Below are positions 465 through 14,554 of a stretch of DNA of 14,559 bases, piece after piece; position 1 is the first letter of the stretch, and every line of letters begins with the position of its first letter. The stretch comes from Thermodesulfobacteriota bacterium. Its GTDB lineage: Bacteria; Desulfobacterota; BSN033; UBA1163. The translations under genes and the position numbers were made by a program. The notes under the pieces are model-generated. The model did no database searches. It saw nothing but the letters and a program-made list of their open reading frames with translations, and was not told where the DNA came from. Where the stretch lies: the NCBI GenBank assembly GCA_030024065.1, contig JASEIE010000052.1, forward strand, positions 1 to 14,559, read 5' to 3'.

Positions 465-1508
465 ATGAAAGCTGCAGTACTGCACAGATATGATGAGTTA
501 CTCTCAAATTCGGAATGGCTTGTTTATGAGGACGTGCCCGATCCAACCATAGAAAACAAAACCGATGTCATCGTGCGAATTGGGGGGGCTGGCGTCTGTC
601 GAACTGATCTGCACATTATTGAGGGGCTATGGCGCAAGTATTTCAATGTGAGCCTGCCTTACATCCTGGGACACGAGAATGCAGGCTGGATCGAAGAAAT
701 CGGGAGTGAAGTTAAAGGAGTTGAGGTTGGGGATCCCGTGATCATTCATCCTGGGGAGATCAATAGTCGCTACGAAGCTTGCAAAGAGGTGAGAGATACA
801 CATACGGTAGACATTCTTCTCCCCGGTATCAGTGCCAATGGCGGATACGCAGAGTTTATGCGAGCCAATGAACGAGCTCTCATCCAGCTTCCTTTAAGTA
901 TTGCCCCGATGGATTTTGCCCCATTGGCCGATGCGGGTTTGACCGCCTACAATGTCGCTAAAAAGGCATCGCGCCATCTGTTGCCCGGGCAATATGTTGT
1001 GATCATTGGGGCAGGTGGTTTGGGGCATATCGGCATTCAGGTATTTCAAGCCCTAAGTGCCGCAGAGATTATCGTCACGGATATATCCGATATGGCGCTC
1101 AATCTGGCTAAAGAGTTGGGGGCACACCACACTATCAAGGCCGGTGATAACGCCGTTGCAGAGGTTCTGGCTTTGACGGGAGGGCATGGTGCCGAGGCAG
1201 TAGTTGATTTCGTCGCAGATGGCGACACTGTGGAAAAAGGATTGGCGATGACCCGGAGGACCGGTTTCTATTACATTGTCGGCTATGGCGGGAAACTGGA
1301 GATTCCCACGATGGATATGATCATGTCGGAAAAGACGATTGTGGGAAACCTCGTCGGATCTTACGCGGAACTTGTTGAGCTGATTGTACTGGCAGACCGC
1401 GGCCTGGTCACACTGACGACGCAGGAGTATCCTCTGAGCAGCGCAAATGACGCCCTACACGATCTCCACGACGGAAAGGTTTTTGGGCGTGCAGTTCTGA
1501 TCCCTTGA
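465..1508 (+). CDS. Zinc-type NAD-dependent alcohol dehydrogenase (MDR family)
   Basis: A 347-residue medium-chain alcohol dehydrogenase, predicted to interconvert an alcohol and a ketone or aldehyde with NAD(H). Catalytic zinc ligands are visible: C45 (GVCRTD), H70-E71 (GHEN) and D156 (PLADAGLT). Asp replaces the usual third Cys, as I recall for Rhodococcus ADH-A-type secondary alcohol dehydrogenases. The Rossmann glycine motif GAGGLG is at 182-187, and D206 ends the second strand, which favours NAD over NADP. The structural-zinc loop (about residues 96-113) keeps only one Cys, so that zinc is probably absent. It is the first gene after the sigma-54 promoter. The ribosome site is weak, but the ATG matches the family's N-terminus. 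It probably oxidises the imported substrate or its product; the true substrate cannot be read from sequence. Confidence 0.9.
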   Translation: MKAAVLHRYDELLSNSEWLVYEDVPDPTIENKTDVIVRIGGAGVCRTDLHIIEGLWRKYFNVSLPYILGHENAGWIEEIGSEVKGVEVGDPVIIHPGEINSRYEACKEVRDTHTVDILLPGISANGGYAEFMRANERALIQLPLSIAPMDFAPLADAGLTAYNVAKKASRHLLPGQYVVIIGAGGLGHIGIQVFQALSAAEIIVTDISDMALNLAKELGAHHTIKAGDNAVAEVLALTGGHGAEAVVDFVADGDTVEKGLAMTRRTGFYYIVGYGGKLEIPTMDMIMSEKTIVGNLVGSYAELVELIVLADRGLVTLTTQEYPLSSANDALHDLHDGKVFGRAVLIP

Positions 1509-1526
1509 AGCGTTATACTTCAGGGG
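1502..1526 (+). promoter_or_regulatory. Intercistronic hairpin at the end of the alcohol dehydrogenase gene
   Basis: CCCTTGAAG (1502-1510) can pair with CTTCAGGGG (1518-1526), with one G-U pair and a 7-base loop. It overlaps the alcohol dehydrogenase stop codon. No U-run follows, so it is not a classical terminator. It is more likely an mRNA processing or stabilising element ahead of the binding-protein gene. Confidence 0.45.
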
Positions 1527-1560
1527 GAATAAACCTGTAACCAAAAAAAGGAGGTGTTTT

Positions 1561-3105
1561 ATGGGAAAAACAAAGATGACCAAGATGGTGGTGACAATTG
1601 CATTGGCAGTTGGGTTAACAGCAGGCGGTGTGGCCGGGGCGGACAAATGGTCGGAAAAATATCCGATCAAAAAGGACATCCCTGGACCCGCATCCTACGA
1701 AGCAACGTCTCAAAAGGATTATAAAGGCCGCACTCTGAATATCCTCACCCATGCCATTCCGGTGATGGGGGAACCCACGGCACTGCATGCCAAGCAATTT
1801 GAAGAGCTGACCGGTGCCAAGGTGAATGTGGTTCATGTTCCTTTTGGGGACCTATTCCAGAAGGCCATGATCCCATTTCAGACGGGACAGGCAGCCTATG
1901 ACGTTATGTTTTACGGTTCACTCTGGATAGGTGACTTTAATGCTTATCTCGAGCCAGTTCCACAGAAATATATCGACATGCCCCAGATGCAGGAGGTCAC
2001 TCGTAACTATAAAGACGTGGCCACCTGGGAGGGTCAGATGATCCAGTTTCCTGTGGACGGCGATCGCCATTACTTGAAATACCGTTCCGACATAATCAAC
2101 AATCCTGAAATGAAGGCCAAGTACAAAGCAAAAACCGGCAAGGAGCTGAGGGTGCCGCAGACGTGGAAGGAATACGACGAGATCGGCCGGTTTTTCAATG
2201 GCTGGGACTGGGATGGCGACGGTGAGAAGAACTACGGGTCCGCCGAGGTTGTGGCTCGCGACGACCTGATGTTTTCGGCCATAATCAGCCGTGTGGCTCC
2301 CTATGCCAAGCATCCCGATGTGAAGGGGGGCTTCTTTTTCGATCTTGAGACCATGGAACCCCTGGTCAACACACCGGGCTGGGTTGAGGGGGTTAAGGAT
2401 TTTGTAGCGGCCCAGGACTATATGCCGCCAGGGGGTAATAACTTTGGTCTGGGCGACGAAATCTTCTCCTTTGGCGGAGGACAGACCCTTTTCAGCTATT
2501 CCTGGGATGATGCGTTTGTCCAGGCCATGGAGCCGAAGTCTCGTATTCGAAACCTCGTGGGAGCGGCGCCGCTTCCCGGGGCTCACAAAGTATGGAATCG
2601 CAAGACCGGTAAATGGGATAATTTCGATAAGCCCAATTATGCCCCTTATATCTGTTGGGGTTGGTCCTCGGCCGTAGCCAAAGCCAGCAAGAACAAAGAT
2701 ATGGCCTTTGATTATTTGGCCTTTTTCTCAAACCAGGCCAATCATCCTTCCGACCTTCTTGTAGGTCGATTTGGCGTCAATCCTTTCCGGACTACAGACT
2801 TTGATCCAAAATTTTACATCAAAGAGGCGGGCTGGGCACCTGATGTTGCAAAAACCTATTGTGCCACACTGTCAGGAATGGAAAAAAGCCGTAACCGCGT
2901 CTTTGACCTCCGTGTTCCAGGTGTTAACCAATACATGAGCTCTTTAGCCACAGGTGTTTCCAAGGCACTTGCCAAACAGCTTACGCCGCAGAAAGCCATG
3001 GATGAAGTCGCTGTGGAATGGAAAAGTATCACTAAGCGCCTCGGGGTCGATCTGGTGCGCAAAGCATACGCAAACGTGGTAGCCCTGGAGGACAATCTGA
3101 GGTAG
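1561..3105 (+). CDS. ABC transporter substrate-binding protein, family 1 (sugar/polyol type)
   Basis: A 514-residue periplasmic solute-binding protein that would deliver substrate to the two permeases downstream. Residues 1-26 form a signal peptide: basic MGKTKMTK, a hydrophobic stretch, then AGGVAGA. There is no lipobox Cys, so it should be a soluble periplasmic protein. The mature part begins with a long linker; the segment GRTLNILTH (56-64) starts the first alpha/beta lobe of the SBP_bac_1 fold. It is longer than the usual ~400-430 residues. A D-x-D-x-D-G loop (D216, D218, D220, G221) resembles an EF-hand-like calcium site. The very strong ribosome site AAAGGAGGTG (1547-1556) fixes the start. 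Gene order with MalF/MalG-like permeases and a MalK-like ATPase supports a carbohydrate-type importer (CUT1). The ligand is not identifiable; the dehydrogenases nearby suggest a hydroxylated compound. Confidence 0.88.
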   Translation: MGKTKMTKMVVTIALAVGLTAGGVAGADKWSEKYPIKKDIPGPASYEATSQKDYKGRTLNILTHAIPVMGEPTALHAKQFEELTGAKVNVVHVPFGDLFQKAMIPFQTGQAAYDVMFYGSLWIGDFNAYLEPVPQKYIDMPQMQEVTRNYKDVATWEGQMIQFPVDGDRHYLKYRSDIINNPEMKAKYKAKTGKELRVPQTWKEYDEIGRFFNGWDWDGDGEKNYGSAEVVARDDLMFSAIISRVAPYAKHPDVKGGFFFDLETMEPLVNTPGWVEGVKDFVAAQDYMPPGGNNFGLGDEIFSFGGGQTLFSYSWDDAFVQAMEPKSRIRNLVGAAPLPGAHKVWNRKTGKWDNFDKPNYAPYICWGWSSAVAKASKNKDMAFDYLAFFSNQANHPSDLLVGRFGVNPFRTTDFDPKFYIKEAGWAPDVAKTYCATLSGMEKSRNRVFDLRVPGVNQYMSSLATGVSKALAKQLTPQKAMDEVAVEWKSITKRLGVDLVRKAYANVVALEDNLR

Positions 3106-3128
3106 AAAAACAGCTTTATGTTGAGATG

Positions 3129-3163
3129 GTACCCGCTTCATTTTACTAAAACGAAGCGGGTAC
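3129..3163 (+). promoter_or_regulatory. Strong intercistronic hairpin after the binding-protein gene
   Basis: GTACCCGCTTC (3129-3139) pairs perfectly with GAAGCGGGTAC (3153-3163). After a single A/C mismatch the stem continues as TTTT (3141-3144) with AAAA (3148-3151) around a 3-base loop. No U-tract follows. In ABC importer operons such hairpins downstream of the binding-protein gene commonly protect its mRNA from 3' decay and reduce permease expression. Its position also argues against a permease start upstream of 3193. Confidence 0.7.
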
Positions 3164-3192
3164 TGTATATTTCTCAAAGGAAGGTCTATTTG

Positions 3193-4065
3193 ATGATCGA
3201 GTCGCGTTATAAGTATCTTTTTCTTTTTCCCGGGCTTTTTACCTTGCTCGCAATCATCATTTTTCCCCTGGTTTTCACTTTTCGCCTGAGTTTTTCCAGT
3301 TGGGATGTAGTGGCGCCTGCGCTCGATTTTATCGGATTTGATAACTATGTCCGGGTTTTCCATGATATTCGCTTCTGGGAATCTTTGGCAACATTAGGCA
3401 CGGTAGTCCTCTCGGTTGTATCTATTGAATATATTATTGGTTTTGGATTGGCTCTTCTGCTCTGGCAGGATATTGAAAAAAGCCGGTTTTTCAGGGTGTT
3501 GTTTATCATTCCTATGATGTCAACGCCTGTTATTATTTCCGTTGTGTGGAGGACCATGTTTCATGAATCTTTAGGCCCGGCAAACGACCTGCTTGCAATG
3601 ATACACCTCCCCACGGTTCCCTGGCTTTCAAAGCCGACCAGTGCACTGATTGCCGTTATAATAGTAGATGTATGGCAGTGGACATCATTTGTGTTTATCC
3701 TGCTGCTGGCAGGGCTACTCTCATTACCTCATGAGCCATATGAGGCGGCAGCAATGGATGGCGCTAATCGTTTTCAGACCTTTTGGCATATCACATTTCC
3801 CATGATGGCCCCCATATCCATTGGAATACTGATAATTCGCATTATCGAAGCATCCAAGATCATGGAAACAGTTTATGTGCTCACTTCGGGAGGGCCCGGT
3901 ACTTCCACCGAAACATCGGCATATTATATCTTTATACGCAGTCTGCGTGAATTCCAGATCGGTTACTCCTCAGCCATGTCCATCGTCTATCTATTGATGA
4001 TGATCGTTGGACTCACATTGATCGCCAAAGGATTGACGAGAGTATTGGTTGCCAAAGGAGGGTGA
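3193..4065 (+). CDS. ABC transporter permease, MalF/UgpA-like
   Basis: A 290-residue inner-membrane subunit of the importer. About six hydrophobic segments are visible: near residues 8-30, 67-92, 102-120, 148-178, 205-220 and 260-280. The cytoplasmic coupling loop has the EAA motif EAAAMDGA (184-191) followed by FWHITFPMMAP, which docks on the ATPase. A longer reading frame is open from 3118, but the extra 25 codons would span the hairpin at 3129-3163. The ATG at 3193 has a good ribosome site (AAGGAAGG, 8 bases upstream), so I chose it. Its last bases overlap the next permease. The family is clear, but a precise symbol (malF, ugpA, msmF) is not justified. Confidence 0.9.
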   Translation: MIESRYKYLFLFPGLFTLLAIIIFPLVFTFRLSFSSWDVVAPALDFIGFDNYVRVFHDIRFWESLATLGTVVLSVVSIEYIIGFGLALLLWQDIEKSRFFRVLFIIPMMSTPVIISVVWRTMFHESLGPANDLLAMIHLPTVPWLSKPTSALIAVIIVDVWQWTSFVFILLLAGLLSLPHEPYEAAAMDGANRFQTFWHITFPMMAPISIGILIIRIIEASKIMETVYVLTSGGPGTSTETSAYYIFIRSLREFQIGYSSAMSIVYLLMMIVGLTLIAKGLTRVLVAKGG

Positions 4066-4067
4066 TG

Positions 4068-4913
4068 ATGAGGATTTTTGTTTATAAGGGACTCAAATAC
4101 CTTGTACTCGTATTATGGTCGGCATTTGTGGCCGGACCCTTCCTGTGGGCGCTGAGTACGTCGGTTAAGAATGATGCAGCGGTGGTGTCTGGCGCAACCT
4201 ATATCCCTTTTGTCGATTTTGAGCCATCTCTTGAAGGATGGAAGGTTCTTTTCCGTGCTACTGAAGGAGTCAATATTTTAGGGCCATACATCTCCAGCCT
4301 TATCGTTACTCTTGTGTCCAGTTTAGTCAGCCTTGCGCTCGGCACGCTTGCCGCTTATGGGTTATCCCGTTTTCGTTTTCGAGCAGGTCCCCTCGGAAAT
4401 GCGGATATAGCATTCTTTTTTATTTCGCAACGCATCATTACACCGGTGGTGCTGGCCATACCCTACTTCCTTCTACTAAAGTCGCTTCGGCTTTTGGATA
4501 CCCACATCGGCTTGATTTTCATTTATATCGCCATGTTATTGCCGATCGTCGTGTGGGTGATGGTCGATTTTTTCAATAATATCTCCGCTGAACTGGATGA
4601 GGCCGCGCTCATTGACGGTTGCACACCACTGGAAGCGTTTTACAGAATTATATTGCCGGAATGTACGCCTGGTTTAGTGGTGACGGGGCTTCTCTGCTTC
4701 ATATTCGCATGGAATGACTTTTTCTTTGCCTTTACTCTAACTTTTGCTGACACTCAGCTTCTGCCTGTTTCGATCGTAGCTCTAAATTCATCCAAAGTTC
4801 CCTGGTGGAGCTTGAGTTCCTCTTCGTTGATTGCGATTGTGCCTTTGGTGGTTTTAGCCGTATGGCTTGAGCGTTATTTAACCCGTGGGGCGTTACTGGG
4901 TGCATTAAAATAG
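4068..4913 (+). CDS. ABC transporter permease, MalG/UgpE-like
   Basis: The second membrane subunit, 281 residues from this start. An N-terminal membrane helix (11-30) is followed by a periplasmic stretch, then five more hydrophobic segments. The EAA loop motif EAALIDGC (178-185) with FYRIILPE marks the ATPase contact. The final segment ends in a basic tail, as in MalG homologues. Three starts are possible: GTG 4062, ATG 4065 and ATG 4068. The ribosome site AAAGGAGG (4054-4061) is best spaced for 4068, though 4065 would overlap the previous stop and allow coupling. It forms the translocation pore with the preceding permease. After it, 192 bases hold no recognisable gene, only a small hairpin (CGATTT 4992-4997 with AAATCG 5002-5007). 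Confidence 0.88.
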   Translation: MRIFVYKGLKYLVLVLWSAFVAGPFLWALSTSVKNDAAVVSGATYIPFVDFEPSLEGWKVLFRATEGVNILGPYISSLIVTLVSSLVSLALGTLAAYGLSRFRFRAGPLGNADIAFFFISQRIITPVVLAIPYFLLLKSLRLLDTHIGLIFIYIAMLLPIVVWVMVDFFNNISAELDEAALIDGCTPLEAFYRIILPECTPGLVVTGLLCFIFAWNDFFFAFTLTFADTQLLPVSIVALNSSKVPWWSLSSSSLIAIVPLVVLAVWLERYLTRGALLGALK

Positions 4914-5105
4914 ACTTGATGATTTACTATTATCGATTGACTATTGAAAGATTTCATTTGTTCAGAACTCTTAAAATAGATGAAGCGAAGCCGATTTCCA
5001 CAAATCGTCAATCGTCAAAACGTAATTCACTGTTTGTTTCCGGCTTGTCCGGGTTAGGTTTTAAATACAATTTTTGTAAGTGCAATATCTATGAAAGGCG
5101 GTAGA

Positions 5106-6200
5106 ATGGCAGAATTACAGATTAAGAAACTATGTAAAGATTTTGGGAAAGTCAGGGCGGTGATTGATCTGAATCTTGATATCCGGGACAAGGAAATGAT
5201 CTGTTTTCTCGGGCCTTCAGGCTGCGGTAAAACCACATCTTTGCGAATGGTGGCTGGCCTGGAACGCCCTACTTCGGGGGAGATATTTCTTGAAGGGAAG
5301 GATGTTACCCATATCCCGCCCAAGGATCGGCATATAGCGATGGTTTTCGAAACCTATGCGCTCTACCCACGAAAGACCGTTTTTGAGAATATGGCCTTTC
5401 CATTAAGAATCAGGAAATTTTCAAATGATGAAATAAAAGCGAAGGTATTGGAGGCAGCAAGAATCCTGGATATAGGGGAGTTTCTCGACAGAAATATTCG
5501 TCAGTTAAGCGGCGGGCAAAGACAGCGGGTGGCCATGGGTAGAGCAATCGTAAGAAAGCCTTCTCTCTTTCTAATGGATGAACCCCTCTCCCATCTCGAC
5601 GCCAAATTAAGGACCCGTATGCGGGGAGAGCTCAAACGGCTTCAAAAAGATCTGGAAACAACAATGATTTACGTTACCCACGATCAACTGGAGGCCATGT
5701 CCATGGCCGACCGAATTGCAGTAATGAATTTCGGTGTGCTGCAGCAATTGGATACGCCAGACCAGATTTTTAATAATCCGGTTAACGAATTTGTGGCCGG
5801 GTTTGTGGGTGATCCGCCAATCAATTTCATTGACGGACAGTATATTGAAGACGGCGGGAAACCGTACTTCCGAAATGATGCTTTCAAGATTGAGCTTCCC
5901 GAAAAAACGGCTGCCGTGATAAGGGAGAAATGCCCTCATGGGTCTCTCCATATGGGCATTCGACCTTCCCATTTTCATCTGCATCAAGAGAAGCCGGATC
6001 TGCCCTCTATGCCTGCAAGGGTCTATATCTCTGAGCCTCTGGGAGAGATGTTGATTATAGATTTTTTACTGGAGAAAAAAATTATCAAGGTTGTAACGAG
6101 CCCGGACATAAGGGTAAATATGGGTGAAACCATGTGGCTGTCTTTCGATTTCGATAAGGTGCATATTTTTGATGCGCAGACAGGTGCTGCCGTTTGTTAA
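5106..6200 (+). CDS. ABC transporter ATP-binding protein, MalK/UgpC-like
   Basis: A 364-residue ATPase that powers the importer. Visible motifs are Walker A GPSGCGKT (36-43), signature LSGGQ (134-138), Walker B LFLMDE (154-159, catalytic E159), the D-loop SHLDA and the H-loop His at H192. The regulatory C-terminal part, from about residue 235, matches the TOBE/OB fold of CUT1 ATPases. Unusually, the Q-loop position has Glu: VFETYALYP with E82, where MalK has Q82. The ATG at 5106 has the ribosome site AAAGGCGG; an in-frame ATG at 5091 would add five residues but has no such site. The ATPase is last among the importer genes and separated by 192 bases from the permeases, yet same-stranded, so it is probably co-transcribed. 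Substrate specificity lies with the binding protein, not here. Confidence 0.92.
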   Translation: MAELQIKKLCKDFGKVRAVIDLNLDIRDKEMICFLGPSGCGKTTSLRMVAGLERPTSGEIFLEGKDVTHIPPKDRHIAMVFETYALYPRKTVFENMAFPLRIRKFSNDEIKAKVLEAARILDIGEFLDRNIRQLSGGQRQRVAMGRAIVRKPSLFLMDEPLSHLDAKLRTRMRGELKRLQKDLETTMIYVTHDQLEAMSMADRIAVMNFGVLQQLDTPDQIFNNPVNEFVAGFVGDPPINFIDGQYIEDGGKPYFRNDAFKIELPEKTAAVIREKCPHGSLHMGIRPSHFHLHQEKPDLPSMPARVYISEPLGEMLIIDFLLEKKIIKVVTSPDIRVNMGETMWLSFDFDKVHIFDAQTGAAVC

Positions 6201-6253
6201 TGCACATCCATCTGAATAAATAGCGACCTGAATGCCGGCAATAGTCTCGCCCA

Positions 6254-6264
6254 TAAGGAGGTGA
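6254..6264 (+). other. Orphan full-length Shine-Dalgarno match
   Basis: TAAGGAGGTGA is an uninterrupted match to the anti-SD tail of 16S rRNA, but no credible gene starts 5-10 bases downstream. The GTG inside it is too close, and the frame it opens lacks coding character. It lies 73 bases upstream of the cupin gene, which has its own ribosome site. It may be a remnant of a lost gene start or a ribosome standby site. Confidence 0.3.
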
Positions 6265-6336
6265 CAAGCCAAGAGGGCGTGGCAAGCCAACGGAGACTTC
6301 CTGATAAACCACAATCACAATATAGGAGGGAACAAA

Positions 6337-6690
6337 ATGGCAAGAGAACTGGTATTCGTAAATCCCGAAAGCATGAAGTGGCAGCCCATCGAAAAGCTGG
6401 GAACCGGTGCCTGGCTCAAGGTCTTAAGTTACGACGAGGAGACAAAGGCCGGAGCCTATCTTATCAAGTTCGATGACGGCTTCCGCGAGCCGCTCCATTC
6501 ACACCCTGGGGCTCACGACATCTTCTTTTTTCAGGGGTGCCTGGTGGACGATGAAGGAAACGAATCCTGTGCAGGCTCTTACTTTTACTCTCCGGCTGGC
6601 CCGAAGCATGAGCATGGTCCCTTCACCGCCAAAGGAGATGTGATCTTCTTCGCTTACTTCGATGGTCCCGTCTTCTATCCTGAAGAGTAA
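6337..6690 (+). CDS. Small single-domain cupin (ChrR-type) protein
   Basis: A 117-residue protein built of one beta-barrel cupin. Likely metal ligands are H54 and H56 (EPLHSHPGAH), H60 or D61 where the classical motif has Glu, and H91 or H93 (GPKHEHGPF). Glycines and prolines of the two cupin motifs are in the expected places (QG at 66-67, GSYFYSPAGPKH at 80-91). Relatives include the ChrR cupin domain and small dioxygenase-like or isomerase-like cupins, so it could be a metal-dependent enzyme or a sensor or binding protein. A strong ribosome site (TAGGAGGG) precedes the ATG. The gene lies inside the operon between the importer and the DUF362 gene, suggesting a catabolic role. Function is not assignable beyond cupin. 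Confidence 0.75.
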   Translation: MARELVFVNPESMKWQPIEKLGTGAWLKVLSYDEETKAGAYLIKFDDGFREPLHSHPGAHDIFFFQGCLVDDEGNESCAGSYFYSPAGPKHEHGPFTAKGDVIFFAYFDGPVFYPEE

Positions 6691-6863
6691 TGGGCGTAAG
6701 GTAGAGACATTAACCCTGCCATTATCAAGGAGAGCGGGTAGTTGGTAAGAGGAGAGTATTCCCCAAGAGTTCCTGCGCACATACTATACAGTGCTTGTGA
6801 GATCTTTTGTAGAGAACTCTGTCAGGAGACGAACAGTTGCTTACATAACATACGAGGGATGAA

Positions 6864-8216
6864 ATGAACAAATCGAAAGTAGCCATTGTCAAAATCGGCC
6901 ATTTAAGAGGTAATGCTGAGTTTCTCGGAGGCAAGTTCCTTCGCTACGACGAAGATATTTCACAATTGAGGAAGAAAATCGCCGAGACCATCGATCTTGC
7001 GGTGGGCGGTATTGACAACATCATCCGTGAGGGTGAAACGGTACTGATCAAACCGAACCTTGCCTTCCAGGCCCCGCCAGAAAGCTTTTCTGTCGTCGAT
7101 CCTCGAGTGATCGAGGCTTTCGTTTCTTACTTAAAGAAAGGCTCCAAGGCCAAAGAGGTCTGGATTGGAGATAATCCCTCGCTGGGCCAGCATGTGGGAC
7201 GGGCACGGCCATCCTTTAAGATGTCCGGTATGCAGGCAGCAGCAGAGCGCGGTGGTGCGGATCGCATCATTTACTTTGATGAGGAGGAGCTTGTGGACGT
7301 GGAGGTGGAGGGGGCTAGGCTGTTCCGCCGGGCCAAAATTTTTAAGCCTTTCTTAGACGCGGATCGGGTCATTAACCTTCCCAAAATGAAGACCCATCTG
7401 GCAGGAACAGTCACATTAGGAGTGAAGAACTGGCAAGGCATCATCCCGAACGTGCACCCGAGCGGCGAGCAGCAAGATGTTCACCGCCTGGATCTGGGTC
7501 AGAAGTGTGCCGATCTGCTTCGTGTTCGTAGAGCTGATTTGACTTTTGTGGATGCGATCATTGCCATGGAGGGCCAGGGTCCGCACGCTGGCACACCCCT
7601 GGAGATGAACCTGTTTATCGCCGGAATGGACACGGTGGCTGTGGATGCCGTAGCAGCCTATGTCATGGGCTTCGAAACAGTGGAAATTCCAGCCGTTCGC
7701 ATTGCCGCCACCGAGGGGTTAGGAGAGAGGGAGATAGACAGGATCGAAGTGGTGGGCACTCCAGTCGCGGATGTGCGCACTTTTTTTAAACGCCCCATGA
7801 TCGACCCCATTGGCCTGATCCCCGGTATTCATGTCATTGTCCAGCAGACATGTCCTGGATGCTTCGCCAACATCCGGGGCGCGCTTGACAACTTCAATAA
7901 TAATGTTGACACCCATGACTTCATAGACAAAGCCGGCGAAATCTATATCGTTGCTGGCGGGGTGCCCGAATTCGAACCTGAGTGGGTTACTGATAAGCAC
8001 CTATTCATACCCGGAGATTGTTGGAAGTTTTTCCCGAGCAGAGAAAAAGTTGAAGAGGCCAAGAAGGTGGCCAAAAGCGTGACTGAATATCCTGGTTGCG
8101 CACCGGTCTACATCTTTGCCCAGCTCAACGGTGATCTCCAGGCACTTTATCAAAAGTGTGGTGGTGTTCTGTGCCCACAACCCGCATTGAGAATGGTACG
8201 AAAACCCTCGTGGTGA
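6864..8216 (+). CDS. DUF362 domain protein with Cys-containing C-terminal extension
   Basis: A 450-residue protein of unknown biochemical function. Residues 1 to about 305 match the DUF362 pattern: ETVLIKPNL (58-66), INLPKMKTHLAGTVTLGVKN (170-189), VDAIIAMEGQGP (229-240) and GMDTVAVDAVAAYVMGF (254-270). DUF362 proteins often accompany Fe-S or redox functions. The extra ~145 residues contain C330-P-G-C333, C386, C412, C432 and C437. Six Cys in a cytosolic protein suggest a metal or Fe-S site, though this is inference. No signal peptide is seen. The ATG at 6864 is preceded by GAGGG. The stop overlaps the GTG proposed as the lipB start, implying translational coupling. The 173-base gap before it holds no gene I can recognise. 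Confidence 0.82.
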   Translation: MNKSKVAIVKIGHLRGNAEFLGGKFLRYDEDISQLRKKIAETIDLAVGGIDNIIREGETVLIKPNLAFQAPPESFSVVDPRVIEAFVSYLKKGSKAKEVWIGDNPSLGQHVGRARPSFKMSGMQAAAERGGADRIIYFDEEELVDVEVEGARLFRRAKIFKPFLDADRVINLPKMKTHLAGTVTLGVKNWQGIIPNVHPSGEQQDVHRLDLGQKCADLLRVRRADLTFVDAIIAMEGQGPHAGTPLEMNLFIAGMDTVAVDAVAAYVMGFETVEIPAVRIAATEGLGEREIDRIEVVGTPVADVRTFFKRPMIDPIGLIPGIHVIVQQTCPGCFANIRGALDNFNNNVDTHDFIDKAGEIYIVAGGVPEFEPEWVTDKHLFIPGDCWKFFPSREKVEEAKKVAKSVTEYPGCAPVYIFAQLNGDLQALYQKCGGVLCPQPALRMVRKPSW

Positions 8217-8914
8217 AAAGAGATCAGACTGGATACTGGTTAGATTTAGGATTAATCCCATACAAGCCGGCGTTTGCCATCCAGGAGCAAATCCTGGAAG
8301 CGCGCATGAGCGACCGATTGCCATCCACTATAATCCTCCAGGAAAACCTGTCAGTTTTCACCATTGGTCGCACTGGTAGCCGTTCAAATATACTGGCCTC
8401 TACGGATGAACTGGAACGGCTGGGAATCGAAGTGTTGGAAGTGAACCGCGGAGGCGACATCACCTATCACGGTCCCGGCCAGATCATTGTATCTCCTTTG
8501 ATCTACCTGGGTGATATTGATCTTAATGCCAACCAATACCTGCATCGCTTGGAGGACGTGCTCATAGATTTACTTTCGACTTTCGGGATTCAAACAAACA
8601 AGAAAGAGGGTTATCCTGGTGTCTGGTGGAATCAGGCCAAGATCGGTGCAGTGGGAATCGCCGTTAAACACGGCTATACTTTTCATGGTTTTTCGCTCAA
8701 CGTCAATCTGGATTTGGCCCCGTTCGACCTGATTAATCCCTGTGGATTCAGCCAGATGCAAGTTACATCTCTCCATCAAATACTTGGACGTAATATCCAG
8801 ATGTCGCACATAAAAAAGAGGCTGTATGAGATTCTGATGCAGACATTTTCTCTCACAACCAGGGATGTTTCCTGGAAGGAAGTTCAAGCGACTTTGGCCT
8901 CCAGCACCGGTTGA
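8213..8914 (+). CDS. lipB: Octanoyl-ACP:protein N-octanoyltransferase LipB
   Basis: A 233-residue transferase that moves octanoyl from ACP onto the lysine of lipoyl domains, the first step of lipoate synthesis; LipA then inserts sulfur. Family motifs are complete: RGGDITYHGPGQ (79-90), the active-site lysine K143 (AKIGAVG), TFHGFSLNVNLDLAPF (156-171) and the catalytic Cys C177 (INPCGF). The reading frame is open from GTG 8156, but those residues lie inside the DUF362 gene and do not resemble LipB. GTG 8213 overlaps the DUF362 stop as GTGA and gives the usual LipB N-terminus; GTG 8210 is equally possible. A lipoyl-domain gene follows 75 bases later and is its likely client. A LipB inside a catabolic operon is unusual, since lipB normally sits alone or with lipA. 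No lipA is seen in this window. Confidence 0.93.
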   Translation: MKRDQTGYWLDLGLIPYKPAFAIQEQILEARMSDRLPSTIILQENLSVFTIGRTGSRSNILASTDELERLGIEVLEVNRGGDITYHGPGQIIVSPLIYLGDIDLNANQYLHRLEDVLIDLLSTFGIQTNKKEGYPGVWWNQAKIGAVGIAVKHGYTFHGFSLNVNLDLAPFDLINPCGFSQMQVTSLHQILGRNIQMSHIKKRLYEILMQTFSLTTRDVSWKEVQATLASSTG

Positions 8915-8989
8915 TCAACGTGAGGAAAGAGAAAACGAGTGGAAAAAGAGAGTGAGGTCCCAAATCAGGTTAATTAAGGAGATAACATT

Positions 8990-9226
8990 ATGAACTACGA
9001 TATAGTCATACCACCAACGGCCGATGGATCAGCAGAAGTCACCATCGTTTCATGGTTAAAGAATGTGGGCAGTTCTATTACAAAAGGGGAAGACCTTGCC
9101 GAAGCGGCAACAGAGAAGATTACCCTGTACGTGACGGCACCGGAAAACGGCACCTTAGAAGAGATACGAGTAACGGTCGGTGAAAAGGCTCGTGTGGGCC
9201 AGGTTATCGGTGTTATGGCCGGGTAG
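8990..9226 (+). CDS. Free-standing lipoyl (biotinyl/lipoyl attachment) domain protein
   Basis: A 78-residue protein consisting of only a lipoyl domain. It resembles the N-terminal domain of 2-oxoacid or acetoin dehydrogenase E2 subunits. The modification lysine is K43 in AATEKIT, replacing the usual ETDKA turn, with symmetric flanks LKNVGSSITKGE and GTLEEIRVTVGE and the closing GQVIGVM. There is no biotin-type MKM motif, so lipoylation is expected. No peripheral-subunit-binding or catalytic acyltransferase domain is attached; the frame stops cleanly. The ribosome site GGAG lies 9 bases before the ATG. LipB immediately upstream probably modifies it. It could serve as a mobile carrier for an acyl or other group for an enzyme encoded elsewhere. 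GcvH or the sulfur-oxidation LbpA proteins are alternatives, but they are larger and differ around the lysine. Confidence 0.85.
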   Translation: MNYDIVIPPTADGSAEVTIVSWLKNVGSSITKGEDLAEAATEKITLYVTAPENGTLEEIRVTVGEKARVGQVIGVMAG

Positions 9227-9239
9227 TCAGGAGGAATAA

Positions 9240-9992
9240 ATGAGATTGGCAAACAAGGTCGCCTTGGTTACGGGCAGCAGTCGTGGTATCGGGCGAGAGA
9301 TTGCATTGGGGTTGGCCAGGGAAGGTGCAGATATCATAGTGAACTATCATAAACGGGAGAATGCGGCCCGCGAAACGGCCAAGGAGATCGAGGATATGGG
9401 GCGGCGAGCCTTGGTGGTACAGGCCGGAGTGACGGTCAGTGCCGAAGTGAAGAAGCTTATCCAGACTGGAGTGGAGAAGTTGGGGCGATTGGATATTCTG
9501 GTTAATAATGCGGGAACGTTCCCCATTAAACCCTTTTCCACCGTGAGCGAAGAGGAATGGGATATGGTCATGAACCTTGACCTTAAAAGCGTTTTTCTCT
9601 GTTGCCGTGAAGCATTGGCTCCCATGCGCCAGCAGCGCGGAGGGACCATTGTTAATATAGCATCGGTGTCCGGACTGGTGGGGGCACTGGGTATGGTCCC
9701 ATACTCAGCAGCAAAGGGTGGCGTCATCGCCTTCACCAAAGCGTTGGCCAGGGAACTGGCTTCTCTTAACATAACCGTAAATGCCATTGCTCCAGGCATC
9801 ATTGAGACGGAAACTACGTTGAAGGCCTTCCCGCCGGGAGCCCTGGAGGCATATAAAACCTACCATGTCCCTCTCGGTCGACTGGGACGGCCGGAAGAAA
9901 TTGTAGGGTTGGCGGTTTTCCTGGCCTCTCCCAATGCCTCCTACATTACCGGCCAGGTTTATGCTGTAGATGGCGGCTTTACGATGCAGTAA
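9240..9992 (+). CDS. SDR-family oxidoreductase (FabG-like)
   Basis: A 250-residue short-chain dehydrogenase/reductase, probably NAD(P)-dependent and soluble. The cofactor motif TGSSRGIG is at 11-18 and NNAG at 89-92. The catalytic set is N112, S142 (IASVSG), Y155 and K159 (YSAAK). The C-terminal ITGQVYAVDGG (236-246) is the classical family ending. It resembles 3-oxoacyl-ACP reductase, but in this operon it more likely acts on a catabolic hydroxy or keto compound, alongside the alcohol dehydrogenase. It starts 13 bases after the lipoyl-domain stop, with ribosome site AGGAGG. It is the last intact gene of the block: transposase debris begins within ten bases of its stop, so original downstream genes may have been lost. 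Confidence 0.9.
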   Translation: MRLANKVALVTGSSRGIGREIALGLAREGADIIVNYHKRENAARETAKEIEDMGRRALVVQAGVTVSAEVKKLIQTGVEKLGRLDILVNNAGTFPIKPFSTVSEEEWDMVMNLDLKSVFLCCREALAPMRQQRGGTIVNIASVSGLVGALGMVPYSAAKGGVIAFTKALARELASLNITVNAIAPGIIETETTLKAFPPGALEAYKTYHVPLGRLGRPEEIVGLAVFLASPNASYITGQVYAVDGGFTMQ

Positions 9993-10164: not shown

Positions 10165-10453
10165 TTCTCTCAGGAAAGAATGGCTTACATCCCAGAAGAG
10201 TCCAAGGTTATCTACCAATCCAAGGATGGGAGAGAAGAGAAGGTCTTCAATGCCCTTGAATAGTTAGCTGCTATGTGCTCTCACATACCCAACAAGGGTG
10301 AGCAGATGGTTCGTTATTATGGGTATTACTGTAACGTATCGCGGGGCAATCGAAAAAAGGAAAACCAGGATTGTTTGATCCCTTATATTATTGAACAAGA
10401 AGAGAATTCAAGAGAATATCGGAAGAACTGGACCAGTCTCATTCAGAAGATTT

Positions 10454-10497
10454 ACCCTGTTGAATTTCCCAAAGGGAACCCTATTCAACAGGGTGTA
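10454..10497. repeat. Palindromic miniature element with TA duplication
   Basis: Perfect 12-base arms ACCCTGTTGAAT (10454-10465) and ATTCAACAGGGT (10483-10494) enclose 17 bases that contain a second small hairpin (TTCCC/GGGAA). TA occurs at both borders (10453-10454 and 10496-10497). Removing 10455-10497 restores the transposase reading K-I-Y-E-V-D in one frame. This identifies a 41-bp insert plus a duplicated TA, as made by IS630/Tc1-type transposases acting on MITEs. Confidence 0.7.
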
Positions 10498-10561
10498 TGA
10501 AGTTGATCCTCTCACTTGCCCCAAATGCCAGGGAATGATGCAAATCATACGCTTCATTGAC

Positions 10562-10765
10562 GATTATGCAATTCCGATTAGCGACGATGACTTTGAGGTT
10601 GGAGGTTTGAAAAAACCAGGTAATATTAGGCCCAATCGCATATTTACCGCTGACACTCATTTAGTTTTATATCGAACAGGTAAGCTTAAAGTTGGAAAAC
10701 TGAATGAAATTATTGATAGAGTGATTGAAATCATTCGGCAATGTGCAAGACAGGACGGGACGTAG
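10562..10765 (+). pseudogene. Truncated MazF/PemK-like toxin, C-terminal part
   Basis: From the end of the transposase homology the frame reads YAIPISDDDFEVGGLKKPGN, then IRPNRIFTAD, HLVLYRTGKLK and KLNEIIDRVIEIIR. The order 'I-P-I...GGL...IRP...FTAD...GKL...L..I...I..II' resembles the C-terminal half of MazF/PemK endoribonuclease toxins. The N-terminal half, with the start codon and the first strands of the barrel, is missing. No antitoxin gene is adjacent. It is fused in frame to the transposase tail, so a chimeric product of up to 124 residues from 10391 could in principle be made. I regard it as a dead fragment; the family call rests on pattern memory. Confidence 0.55.
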
Positions 10766-11068: not shown

Positions 11069-11125
11069 AAATTTTTGGATGTCGTAAAATTTCAAATATT
11101 TTTGGTTAGAAATCAGAGGAGAAAA

Positions 11126-12364
11126 ATGGAAAAAAGAAGGGTAGTCATAACAGGCATGGGGGTAGTAGCCCCCAACGGCATCGGGGTAGATAACTTCTGG
11201 GATTCCTTAGTCCACGGCCGGTCTGCAGTCAGAAAAATCACCCACTTCGACGCCTCCTCCTACCCTTCCCAAATAGCCGCCGAAGTTCCTGATTTCGACC
11301 CTACCGACTATATGGATCCAAAAACCGCAAAAAGATTAGGTAGATTCGCACAATTCGTTTTAGCAGCCTCTCAAATGGCAATTGACGATTCCGGAATAGA
11401 TTTTAAACAGGAAGACCCTTTTAGGTCTGGAGTTTTTATTGGAACAGCAATCGGGGGGGGAGACGTTTCGGAGCATTATCATACCGTATTTATGGAAAAA
11501 GGGATGAAGAGAATTCCTCCCTATTCGGTATTTTCAATTTCAACTCATTGCGCGAGTGGGGCAATCAGTTGTGAATTTGGTTTGAAAGGGCTTAATAATA
11601 CTGTATCCGCTGGTTGCAACTCCGGCTTGGATGCTTGCTACCTCGCTTATAATTCGATAAAAGCTGGGGATGCTGATGTCATCATCGTTGGAGCTGGGGA
11701 AGCTCCGATTACTCCATATATCTTTGCTATCTTTTGTGCAAGTGGTTACTTATCAAGAGTCAATGATAATCCCTTAAAAGCGGTAAAACCATATGATATG
11801 GATAGTGATGGGTTGGTTTTAGGAGAAGGTGGTGCTGTTATTATTCTTGAAGAACTTGCACACGCTAAAAAAAGGAATGCAAAAATATATGGTGAAATTC
11901 TTGGATATGGCGCTACCAATGACGGATATGATCTATTCGGAGTAAACTTGAATGGCACAGCGGCAGCGATGTGTTTTAAAAAGGCATTATTAAATGCTCA
12001 GGCTGAACCCAAAGATATTGATTATATCAATGCCCATGGTAATGGTTATTTGGATTACGATATCTGTGAGACAGAAGCCATTAAAGAAGCATTCGGGGAA
12101 ATCGCTTATCAGATTCCTGTTTCTTCCCTTAAGCCTATTACTGGTCAATCTCTTTCTCCAACTGGCATATTTCAGTTAATAGCTTGCCTCTTAGCAATGA
12201 GAGATAGCATTATTCCTCCGACAATAAATCACTTTAATCCTCATCCAAAATGTGACCTCAATTATGTGCCGAGACAATCTATTAAAAAGGAGGTTGCAAC
12301 AGCAACCATGAGTGCCCACGGATTTGGAGGAAGACATACTGTATTGGTGGTCTCAAAATACTAA
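11126..12364 (+). CDS. Beta-ketoacyl-ACP synthase (FabF/KAS II superfamily), divergent active site
   Basis: A 412-residue condensing enzyme of the thiolase fold, expected to extend an acyl chain from malonyl-ACP. The N-terminal RRVVITGMGVVAPNG (4-18) is classical. The nucleophile is C164 (SAGCNSGLDA), the first active-site His is H304 (NAHGNG), and K336 (SLKPITGQ) is present. The second His of the Cys-His-His triad is replaced by Q341 (TGQ instead of TGH), and the gating-loop region reads SAHGFGG rather than NSFGFGG. Reduced or altered activity, or a decarboxylase or partner-subunit role, is possible. The frame is open from 11075, but ATG 11126 has the ribosome site AGAGGAGA and gives the family's N-terminus. 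No ACP, acyltransferase or reductase gene is adjacent, so its pathway is unknown. A histidine kinase gene follows after 30 bases. Confidence 0.87.
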   Translation: MEKRRVVITGMGVVAPNGIGVDNFWDSLVHGRSAVRKITHFDASSYPSQIAAEVPDFDPTDYMDPKTAKRLGRFAQFVLAASQMAIDDSGIDFKQEDPFRSGVFIGTAIGGGDVSEHYHTVFMEKGMKRIPPYSVFSISTHCASGAISCEFGLKGLNNTVSAGCNSGLDACYLAYNSIKAGDADVIIVGAGEAPITPYIFAIFCASGYLSRVNDNPLKAVKPYDMDSDGLVLGEGGAVIILEELAHAKKRNAKIYGEILGYGATNDGYDLFGVNLNGTAAAMCFKKALLNAQAEPKDIDYINAHGNGYLDYDICETEAIKEAFGEIAYQIPVSSLKPITGQSLSPTGIFQLIACLLAMRDSIIPPTINHFNPHPKCDLNYVPRQSIKKEVATATMSAHGFGGRHTVLVVSKY

Positions 12365-12394
12365 AACAAAAACATATGATTTAGGGTTTTAAAA

Positions 12395-14554
12395 TTGAGT
12401 CTTATTGGAATAATACTTATCTTTGCTATCGTAGTTAACACTGGGTTGGGCATTTTAGTTTTTTTAAAAAGATCCACCTTTAAGCAGTTAAATATCACTT
12501 TCGCTGTTCTTTCTTGGGCTTCCGCAGGTTGGATTTTGAGTGTTTTGTTGGCTTATTTTCTTGAGGATCCTTTTTTGAGGTTGTTTTGGGGTAGAATGAG
12601 TTTTGCTACATCGGGGATAATTCCTACAGCATTTCTTCTATTTGCTATCCTTTTTCCAAGAAATCAAAGGACGATTAACTCTTTTAAACTCATTTTATTA
12701 TGTTTACCTGCGATATTTTTTTTGGTTTTATCATTTTCTAACCAAGTCGTTACTTCACTTGGCGATGGTCCCAAAATGTTTATTTACGGGTCTTTTTATC
12801 CGATCTTTTCCGTTTATTTAACGGGTTATATTCTTTTGGGTTTATTAATTCTGATAAGGACATATAAAAATACTATTGGAGTCGAGAGACTCCAAGTTAA
12901 GTACTGTTTATTGGGAATGTTTTTTACTTCAAGCCTTGGGTTATTAAGCAACCTGTTTCTTCCGATGGTGGGAGTTTCCAAATTCAACTGGCTGGGTCCT
13001 TCCCTTACTATGATTATGGTTGGTTTCACAACCTATTCTATCCTCAAACATCGTTTGATGGATATTAATATTGTCTTGAAGAAAGGGACAACTTACATCC
13101 TTTTGTTGTTGCTTCTTTTCATCCCCTCCTTTATTTTAATCCTTCTTGGCCAGAAGATCTTCTATGGAAAGATAAATTATTTATTTACGGTGATGATGTT
13201 TTCGGTCCTTTTCCTGGCGGCTATCTTATTTCACAGGATCAAACCAGGGACCGAAAAGGCAGTAGAGCAGCTCCTCTTTAAAGATCGCTACAATTATCGT
13301 GAGACACTGGGGAAATTCAGCAAGGCGATGGTGACGATCCTCGATCTACAATCTCTCTTGAGAAGGATTGTCGAGACCATTACTCAGACCATGGGGGTTG
13401 AGAAGGCTTCTCTATTTCTCTTTAATGAAGAGAAAAGGGGATATGATTTATTCGAATCGAAGAATGTCAACATGGCTTCTTCCTCCCCCTTTCTTTCCAA
13501 AACAGCCCCCCTTCCCCACTATTTGCAGAAAATCGGAGAAATTGTTGTGAAGGAAGAATTGGCCAAGGGTAGACATATTCTAGAATTGGACCAGGTCGTC
13601 AATCAGATGTCCTTGCTGGAAGCGGAAGTCAGCATACCGCTTATTTTAAAGGGGCATCTCATCGGAATCATTAATCTCAACCATAAACTTAACAAGGATA
13701 TCTATTCCCATGAAGACATAGAACTGCTCACCACCCTCGCCAACCAAACAGCCGTTGCCATTGAGAATGCAAGGCTCTTTGAAGATCTAAAAAAGTCAAA
13801 ATCCTATATTCGCAGAGCGGACCGCCTCGCCTCCCTTGGAACCCTTACGGCAGGCCTGGCCCATGAGATCCGCAACCCCCTGGTTGCCATTAAGACACTC
13901 ACCCAATTGTTGCCGGAACGGCTCGAGGACGAGGAATTTCGAAACCATTTCCTGAACATCGCCGCAGGAGAGGTGGACCGGATCTCACATCTGATCAATG
14001 AACTCTTGGATTTTGCCAGGCCTTCGAGCCCCAAATTGGAATTTGAAGATGTCAACAGCATTTTAGATGGAATGATACTTCTGGTCTCAACGGAGAGCAA
14101 AAAGAAGCAAATCCATATCGCCAAACAATATATACCGGATCTGCCCTCCGTCAAGGTCGACCGGGAACAGATCAAACAGGTCTTTTTAAATGTCTTACTA
14201 AACGCCATTGAAGCGACCCCTGAGAATGGGGAAATCACCGTAAAAACCCGTTCCTTTTTAAAACCCGGAGGGGAACCCTATCTTCAGGTCGAATTTAAGG
14301 ATACGGGTTGCGGCATTCCGCAAGAATATGTAGAGGAAATTTTCAACCCCTTTTATACGACGAAGACGACCGGAAGCGGCCTGGGACTGTCGATCTCCAA
14401 TCAGATTGTACAGGATCACAAAGGATATATTGATGTTGAGAGTCAGGTGAGCAAGGGGACCTCCTTCTTCATCAATTTGCCTGTGGACCAGGACCGTCCA
14501 AGAAGAAGGCAAACCGATCTCGAAACTCAACGAACGACTTTTTTTGAGCCATGA
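12395..14554 (+). CDS. Membrane sensor histidine kinase (7TM-type, GAF, HisKA, HATPase)
   Basis: A 719-residue sensor kinase. Residues 1-285 contain about eight hydrophobic helices, resembling the HisKA_7TM sensor module. A short linker leads to a GAF domain (about 305-462), followed by a helical segment and the HisKA domain with the phospho-acceptor H490 (LAHEIRNPL). The ATPase domain shows the N-box N603 (NVLLNAIEAT), G1 DTGCGIP (636-642), F-box NPFYTTK and G2 GSGLGLS (660-666). The start is a TTG with only a weak upstream TAGGG; the first membrane helix begins at once, and the next Met is residue 68, so TTG is the best choice. Its stop overlaps a following ATG (ATGA), suggesting coupling to a response regulator. 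The ligand is unknown. The first third is visibly AT-richer than the kinase core. Confidence 0.9.
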   Translation: MSLIGIILIFAIVVNTGLGILVFLKRSTFKQLNITFAVLSWASAGWILSVLLAYFLEDPFLRLFWGRMSFATSGIIPTAFLLFAILFPRNQRTINSFKLILLCLPAIFFLVLSFSNQVVTSLGDGPKMFIYGSFYPIFSVYLTGYILLGLLILIRTYKNTIGVERLQVKYCLLGMFFTSSLGLLSNLFLPMVGVSKFNWLGPSLTMIMVGFTTYSILKHRLMDINIVLKKGTTYILLLLLLFIPSFILILLGQKIFYGKINYLFTVMMFSVLFLAAILFHRIKPGTEKAVEQLLFKDRYNYRETLGKFSKAMVTILDLQSLLRRIVETITQTMGVEKASLFLFNEEKRGYDLFESKNVNMASSSPFLSKTAPLPHYLQKIGEIVVKEELAKGRHILELDQVVNQMSLLEAEVSIPLILKGHLIGIINLNHKLNKDIYSHEDIELLTTLANQTAVAIENARLFEDLKKSKSYIRRADRLASLGTLTAGLAHEIRNPLVAIKTLTQLLPERLEDEEFRNHFLNIAAGEVDRISHLINELLDFARPSSPKLEFEDVNSILDGMILLVSTESKKKQIHIAKQYIPDLPSVKVDREQIKQVFLNVLLNAIEATPENGEITVKTRSFLKPGGEPYLQVEFKDTGCGIPQEYVEEIFNPFYTTKTTGSGLGLSISNQIVQDHKGYIDVESQVSKGTSFFINLPVDQDRPRRRQTDLETQRTTFFEP

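Follow-up and report, generated by a model that had tools for sequence, protein, structure and literature searches.

Private pairs of a lipoyl carrier and its modifying enzyme are already known. The operons of class M sirtuins encode the pair LplA2/GcvH-L (as set out in part of PMC4518038), and in the sHdr-LbpA system a free lipoate carrier is served by a sLpl(AB)/LipS1/LipS2 assembly (excerpts of PMC6067878 and PMC10332631). The latter source, in the excerpt used, calls the octanoyltransferase LipB an all-purpose transferase for all known pathways except sHdr (PMC10332631). The subject of this analysis is a 14,559-nucleotide stretch of a Thermodesulfobacteriota bacterium (assembly GCA_030024065.1, contig JASEIE010000052.1; hereafter the window, meaning the whole stretch), in which a lipB gene and the gene of a free-standing lipoyl domain stand side by side in a catabolic operon, between a gene for a DUF362 protein and one for a short-chain dehydrogenase/reductase (SDR). 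The reading favored here, at a probability of about one half, is that this lipoyl domain is a private LipB-modified carrier that serves the DUF362 enzyme and the dehydrogenases of the operon in the catabolism of an imported small hydroxy-compound.

The lipB gene (8213–8914; all genes of the operon lie on the + strand) encodes 233 residues from a GTG start at 8213 that lies inside the stop codon of the DUF362 gene. The protein scores above the cut-offs of TIGR00214 (132.7 bits; cut-off 83.55), PRK14345 (160.3 bits; cut-off 155), and PF21948 (143.4 bits; cut-off 27), and below those of three other LipB equivalog models (PRK14341, PRK14342, and PRK14343). The catalytic dyad of Escherichia coli LipB, K135 and C169 in the portion of the literature drawn upon (PMC9307952), corresponds to K143 (codon 8639–8641) and C177 (codon 8741–8743), both of which are present in all ten aligned rows. 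After a gap of 75 bases follows the carrier gene (8990–9226), with a clear ribosome-binding site (AAGGAG, 8976–8981) and a product of 78 residues that matches PF00364 at 49.5 bits (cut-off 22.1) and no further Pfam domain. The candidate attachment site, K43, is encoded at 9116–9118. Profiles, catalytic residues, and coordinates thus uphold the initial annotation, which had seen an intact octanoyltransferase gene closely followed by a small lipoyl protein with this lysine.

K43 occurs in all 138 carrier sequences listed (85 and 53 more, the window's included), in which T41-E42-K43-I44 and L46-Y47 are likewise invariant, and it is the putative site of octanoylation and subsequent lipoylation. 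In a tree built from few columns, a single branch (97/97; 98% of 200 bootstrap trees) separated 35 carriers from an outgroup of 28 lipoyl domains from longer frames, presumed to be E2 proteins, and four others (L004–L006, in frames of 182, 325, and 86 residues, and L052, of 82 residues). Among NCBIfam profiles, the carrier comes nearest to acetoin dehydrogenase E2 (51.0 bits) and SucB (50.8 bits), in both cases over the lipoyl domain. GCV_H (PF01597) was not among the carrier's matches at E 0.001; GcvH-like proteins from two of the relatives' genomes, G001 and G234, do match it. A biotin protein was considered and ruled out because of the T-E-K-I motif, the E2 models as best NCBIfam profiles (1e-13), and the weak match to the biotin/lipoyl carrier profile PRK05889 (4e-4, 20.4 bits against a cut-off of 75). 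A further homologue of the carrier (P0211) was seen in a record that names the Olavius-associated proteobacterium Delta 1.

The arrangement around the carrier is conserved. A scan of a genome collection returned eleven relatives of the carrier, three of which, at 70–83% identity, lie in the order DUF362-lipB-lipoyl-SDR: L001 in a Desulfobacteraceae draft, L002 in a Syntrophobacterales draft (the SDR being cut by the contig end), and L003 in a Deltaproteobacteria draft. The eight distant hits (L004–L011, 27–46% identical) were left out of the family; the three inspected (L004–L006) had no DUF362, lipB, or SDR relative nearby. Profile searches added L051 and L058, from genomes G234 and G445, so that the relatives comprise five loci in the draft genomes G001, G002, G003, G234, and G445. 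The same order is present in all five examined loci with a close-family carrier, which is more than chance would give. The SDR is 66–94% identical in these relatives. L051 and L058 hold the whole run, that is, a divergent GAF-domain regulator (with a sigma-54 domain in the G234 stretch), the alcohol dehydrogenase (ADH), the binding protein, two permeases, two ATPases, DUF362, lipB, lipoyl, and SDR. The initial annotation had suggested looking for a conserved neighborhood of the lipoyl protein with LipB, DUF362, a cupin, and ADH; lipB and DUF362 were found in 5/5 relatives and the ADH in both contigs that reach that far, but the cupin, between the ATPase and DUF362 genes of the window, is absent from that position in all five.

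In a sample of 395 genomes of the phylum the carrier profile matched 68 at E 1e-12, two of them at ~143 bits, and the other matches listed reached at most 62.5 bits and lay mostly in frames of several hundred residues. Four of the 85 genomes from the order of G003, which are also those of the class of G234, had a match, as did one of 55 in the class of G002. The two genome scans scored at most 14 (the 395-genome sample) and at most 4 first-look candidates per genome, and a member in a large genome may be missed. Additionally, of the 40 carrier contigs that are 5 kb or longer, 13 share their exact size with one of 120 listed DUF362 contigs, where 10,000 trials with jittered sizes averaged 0.11 such matches and never exceeded 3. 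As this comparison used 120 of 344 DUF362 matches and 120 of 325 carrier-profile matches, the remaining 27 contigs should not be counted as negatives; the 13 are not all independent of the five named loci, from which some of them may come. Close homologues of the DUF362 protein were also seen in records named Anaerolineae (P0163) and Symbiobacteriaceae (P0202).

One alternative is that a housekeeping lipB drifted into the operon and that the small protein beside it is incidental. This view would be served by G001 (1.7 Mb) and G002 (2.1 Mb), the two smallest and possibly incomplete drafts, in which no second lipB was seen, but each of the other three genomes has another lipB, beside gcvPB in G003 and G234 and beside lipA in G445 (the neighbors were named by eye from the sequences, and the lipA-side copy is split over two contigs). 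The six operon LipBs also cluster separately: they are set apart by a branch (93/97; 92% of 200 bootstrap trees) that the tree program did not star, and 6 of 500 label shuffles gave a result as low. They are 56–83% identical to each other, 31–38% identical to the LipBs beside gcvPB, and 37–43% identical to the lipA-side piece. Further, lipB adjoins the carrier gene in all six loci, window included, at gaps of 39–178 bases; in G234 the carrier gene is flanked by wider gaps, of 178 and 158 bases. A drifted housekeeping gene is therefore considered very improbable, and the operon LipB seems to be a paralogue that looks dedicated to its carrier. The initial annotation would have given up its private carrier with its own modifying enzyme had lipB been single in the genome and had relatives lacked the lysine or the neighborhood. 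Where this was looked at, in the relatives, the lysine and the block persist and a separate lipB is found in G003, G234, and G445, which supports the proposal; the check for a second copy came out otherwise in G001 and G002.

It is also conceivable that the carrier acts in trans as the lipoyl domain of a thiamine diphosphate-dependent dehydrogenase of the acetoin or 2-oxoacid type with its E1 encoded elsewhere; ADH and SDR would make a diketone or oxo acid, the E1 would reductively acylate the carrier, and the acyl group would go to CoA. The profiles nearest to the carrier fit this explanation, as does the divergent regulator of G234, which is nearest to DhaR (105 bits; cut-off 551). PF00676 E1 matches of at least 115 bits are present in G001, G002, and G445, and G445 has a PF00676 E1 on a contig (C263) with no E2 core hit. 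On the Tabrizicola piscis plasmid (L065), a divergent AceE-like E1 (21164–23524) lies near an import cassette like that of the operon, beyond an alpha/beta hydrolase gene and an oppositely oriented Lrp gene. Conversely, no E1 was seen in the six operon loci, as judged by Pfam for the window and by eye in translations for the others. Of the ten proteins encoded from 465 to 9992 of the window, none was recognized by Pfam as an E1, an E2 core, or an E3, in agreement with the initial annotation. E2 cores were detected in two of the five relatives' genomes (G001 and G445) and in none of G002, G003, and G234. G234 had no PF00676 match, and G003 had two, of 18.6 and 21.3 bits in frames of more than 600 residues, the better one reaching 22.6 bits with its neighbors against a cut-off of 22. 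Weak matches of this kind also occur in G001, G002, and G445 and were taken, by judgement, for other thiamine enzymes. Because they show no E2 core match and only weak or no PF00676 matches, G003 and G234 appear to have neither an E2 core nor a credible PF00676-type E1, and a partner E1 in trans is regarded as rather unlikely.

Several of these genomes seem to run more than one lipoyl system. In G001, G234, and G445, LplA-like ligase genes stand beside GcvH-like proteins with radical SAM genes nearby, and it is their presence in addition to the operon pair that suggests as much. Pfam served to check one of the GcvH-like proteins in G001, another in G234, and a single radical SAM protein, likewise in G001. 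On contig C268 of G001, GcvH-like proteins occur with a DsrE-like protein, LplA-like ligases, and a radical SAM gene (L054 and L018), a group that looks like a private lipoylation cluster of the LbpA/LipS type. At L094 and L095 (G234 and G445), a GcvH-like gene lies directly upstream of an LplA-like ligase gene, with a radical SAM gene nearby by eye.

DUF362 is a widespread family of unknown function, and the member encoded directly upstream of lipB (6864–8216) is predicted to be LarA-like in fold, the LarA type having been returned by Foldseek for its modelled structure. A weak alignment (probability 3.6%, E 0.012) places its H110, H178 (at 7395), K188 (7425), and H207 (7482) opposite H109, H175, K185, and H201 of the LarA homologue L113, residues equated by spacing with H108, H174, K184, and H200 of LarA. 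Three DUF362 proteins searched up to E 10 did not match Lar_N (PF09861), and against the PDB the sequence gave one chance match (E 0.35) and the DUF362 profile none up to E 10. The C-terminal domain carries four conserved cysteines, C330 (7851), C333 (7860), C386 (8019), and C412 (8097), the first in 58 of 59 rows and the others in all 59, which may perhaps form a [4Fe-4S] site. For a likeness to [4Fe-4S] domains of the NuoB and hydrogenase small-subunit kind, alignment by hhalign with E. coli NuoB, HybO, and HyaA covered 12–16 residues, which in HybO and HyaA are the PGC motif.

From these genes we infer a partner, an Fe-S cluster, a substrate, and a chemistry as follows. The operon LipB would move octanoate from acyl carrier protein to K43, and a lipoyl synthase encoded elsewhere would insert the sulfurs. 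The carrier would serve enzymes of its own operon, chiefly the DUF362 protein with its LarA-like fold and possible [4Fe-4S] site but also the FabG-like SDR and the zinc-dependent ADH, in a pathway that would degrade a small hydroxy-compound imported by the ABC (ATP-binding cassette) transporter. Most likely, the swinging dithiol/disulfide would take reducing equivalents or a thiol-bound intermediate at the active site of the DUF362 protein, and the lipoyl arm would then pass this load to the dehydrogenases that use NAD, or else to lipoamide dehydrogenase. The initial annotation had considered the transfer of an acyl or C1-type group to a partner encoded elsewhere; the data speak rather for a partner inside the operon, presumably the DUF362 protein. 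A bolder version, which is judged unlikely, has the DUF362 protein as a LarA-fold and possibly nickel-pincer-nucleotide enzyme, fused to a [4Fe-4S] domain, that takes hydride or electrons from the hydroxy-compound and gives them to the lipoyl disulfide of the LipB-charged carrier, which would constitute a new class of lipoate enzyme. If true, the hidden redox chemistry of LarA would here be coupled to net oxidation.

It should be noted that a number of observations weigh against a private carrier that serves the DUF362 enzyme, besides the two small drafts with a single lipB. The structural likeness to LarA comes with low TM-scores (0.32–0.38) and a root-mean-square deviation near 13, the VIA-align comparison covers 213–227 of 450 residues, and the C-terminal domain modelled alone has a pLDDT of 49.5. 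The weakness of the sequence alignment counts on the same side. In that weak alignment LarA D72/R75 (the SD.TR motif of L113) falls opposite DUF362 residues 65–68 and a gap, with no Asp or Arg between 60 and 72. H110 is replaced by Q in 17 of 59 rows, and the distant relative L062 seems to be without H178. The link between the DUF362 protein and the carrier consists of gene order and co-occurrence, and DUF362 is not the best-conserved gene of the block, since in L001 and L002 the SDR is closer (93–94% against 88–90%). Among the possible E1 partners, the borderline match of G003 was set aside by judgement, the search used PF00676 only, which an AceE-type E1 would escape, and, the relatives' genomes being drafts, absences of E1, E2, and a second lipB may reflect missing contigs.

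The remaining genes of the operon complete one long run of ADH, solute-binding protein, two permeases, ATPase, cupin, DUF362, lipB, lipoyl, and SDR. The run opens with a zinc-dependent ADH of the medium-chain dehydrogenase/reductase (MDR) family (465–1508; PF00107 and PF08240), whose orthologue occupies the corresponding position in L051 and L058. An ABC solute-binding protein (1561–3105; PF13416/PF01547), two ABC permeases (3118–4065 and 4062–4913; both PF00528), and a MalK-type ATPase (5091–6200; PF00005, OB_MalK, and TOBE_2) follow, and then a ChrR-type cupin (Cupin_7; 6337–6690; PF12973), found at this place in the window only. The FabG-like SDR (9240–9992; PF13561) comes last, behind a clear ribosome-binding site (AGGAGG, 9229–9234). 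These dehydrogenases allow a further explanation, in which the carrier supplies the thiol for oxidizing or detoxifying aldehydes: the dihydrolipoyl carrier and an aldehyde would form a hemithioacetal, which the zinc-dependent ADH or the SDR would oxidize to a thioester, as in glutathione-dependent formaldehyde dehydrogenase. The joint presence of an MDR ADH and an SDR would suit it, and profiles of thiol-dependent formaldehyde dehydrogenase match the ADH weakly (101 and 66 bits; cut-offs 513 and 544). However, it leaves the DUF362 protein without a role, and plasmids of three genera have the ADH and transporter cassette but no carrier, which together make it improbable.

That cassette appears to be a separate module. 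The solute-binding protein is 70.5–71.4% identical to those of L051 and L058 and 63–67% identical to the five best plasmid records. The cassette of binding protein, permeases, and ADH is present without DUF362, lipB, or lipoyl genes in the plasmid stretches fetched from Ponticoccus, Tabrizicola, and two Streptomyces (one judged from its annotation, with a GAF-domain protein present, and the other by tblastn only). It is accompanied by a sigma-54-type regulator on the Ponticoccus and Tabrizicola plasmids. The plasmid orthologues of the binding protein are accompanied by an ADH and, as far as annotation exists, by a regulator, and their further genes differ; the fetched Ensifer stretch held permeases and ATPases only. 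Because the import cassette occurs without DUF362, lipB, and lipoyl genes, the lipoyl block looks like an addition to the transport module and not a part of it. A search for the binding protein at E 1e-100 in 257 genomes from G001's phylum returned G234 alone, and the protein's sole match in the PDB was maltose-binding protein (1.4e-6). On the Ponticoccus alexandrii plasmid (L063), a pyruvate carboxylase gene comes after the import cassette, and a cluster for a soluble diiron monooxygenase lies close by.

Elsewhere in the window, overlapping short frames at 10273–10765, without a Pfam match, resemble by eye a decayed transposase end. A FabF-type ketoacyl synthase and then a 7TM/GAF histidine kinase occupy 11075–14554, genes that do not adjoin the block in L001 or L003. 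No Rfam families or tRNAs were found in the window. LipB, the carrier, and the DUF362 protein had no PADLOC match, and an anti-phage role was ruled out on that ground.

Only a few enzyme systems are known to use lipoate. The block, found in uncultured bacteria related to sulfate reducers, points to a lipoic acid-dependent enzyme system hitherto undescribed, and a conserved catabolic operon with its own octanoyltransferase and free carrier, in drafts that may be without classical E2 complexes, would add one to that number. It would also show that the all-purpose LipB can be dedicated, and it gives the DUF362 family a concrete candidate partner. In the literature searched, limited to open-licence PMC papers, no description was found of a LipB-based private pair with an E2-type free domain, nor any paper combining lipoyl and DUF362. 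Since the known private pairs in that literature lack this combination, the LipB-carrier pair is regarded as new in this form, and the enzyme chemistry behind it is possibly new.

The comparison with known systems can be drawn as follows, for the LplA2/GcvH-L and sHdr systems as far as the cited excerpts describe them. Like LplA2/GcvH-L, the operon combines its own carrier, a dedicated lipoylating enzyme, and adjoining oxidoreductases, but that system has a GcvH-like carrier, a lipoate ligase, a sirtuin, and a macrodomain, whereas the window has an E2-type domain and LipB, and Pfam found neither sirtuin nor macrodomain among the ten operon proteins. The sHdr-LbpA system resembles it in having a free-standing carrier that is served by assembly genes of its own and does not belong to the 2-oxoacid or glycine complexes. 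There, LbpA is GcvH-like, is made by sLpl with LipS1/S2, and is accompanied by Hdr-like genes, while here a seemingly dedicated LipB paralogue takes that place. Unlike the LarA nickel-pincer-nucleotide racemases, the DUF362 protein has no Lar_N match, shows in the weak alignment neither Asp nor Arg at the position of the SD.TR motif, and has an additional four-cysteine C-terminal domain. Finally, PF00364 is common to the carrier and the N-terminal lipoyl domains of the E2 proteins AcoC, SucB, and pyruvate dehydrogenase E2, but the carrier's frame stops after its 78 residues without an E2 core, and the carriers form a group of their own.

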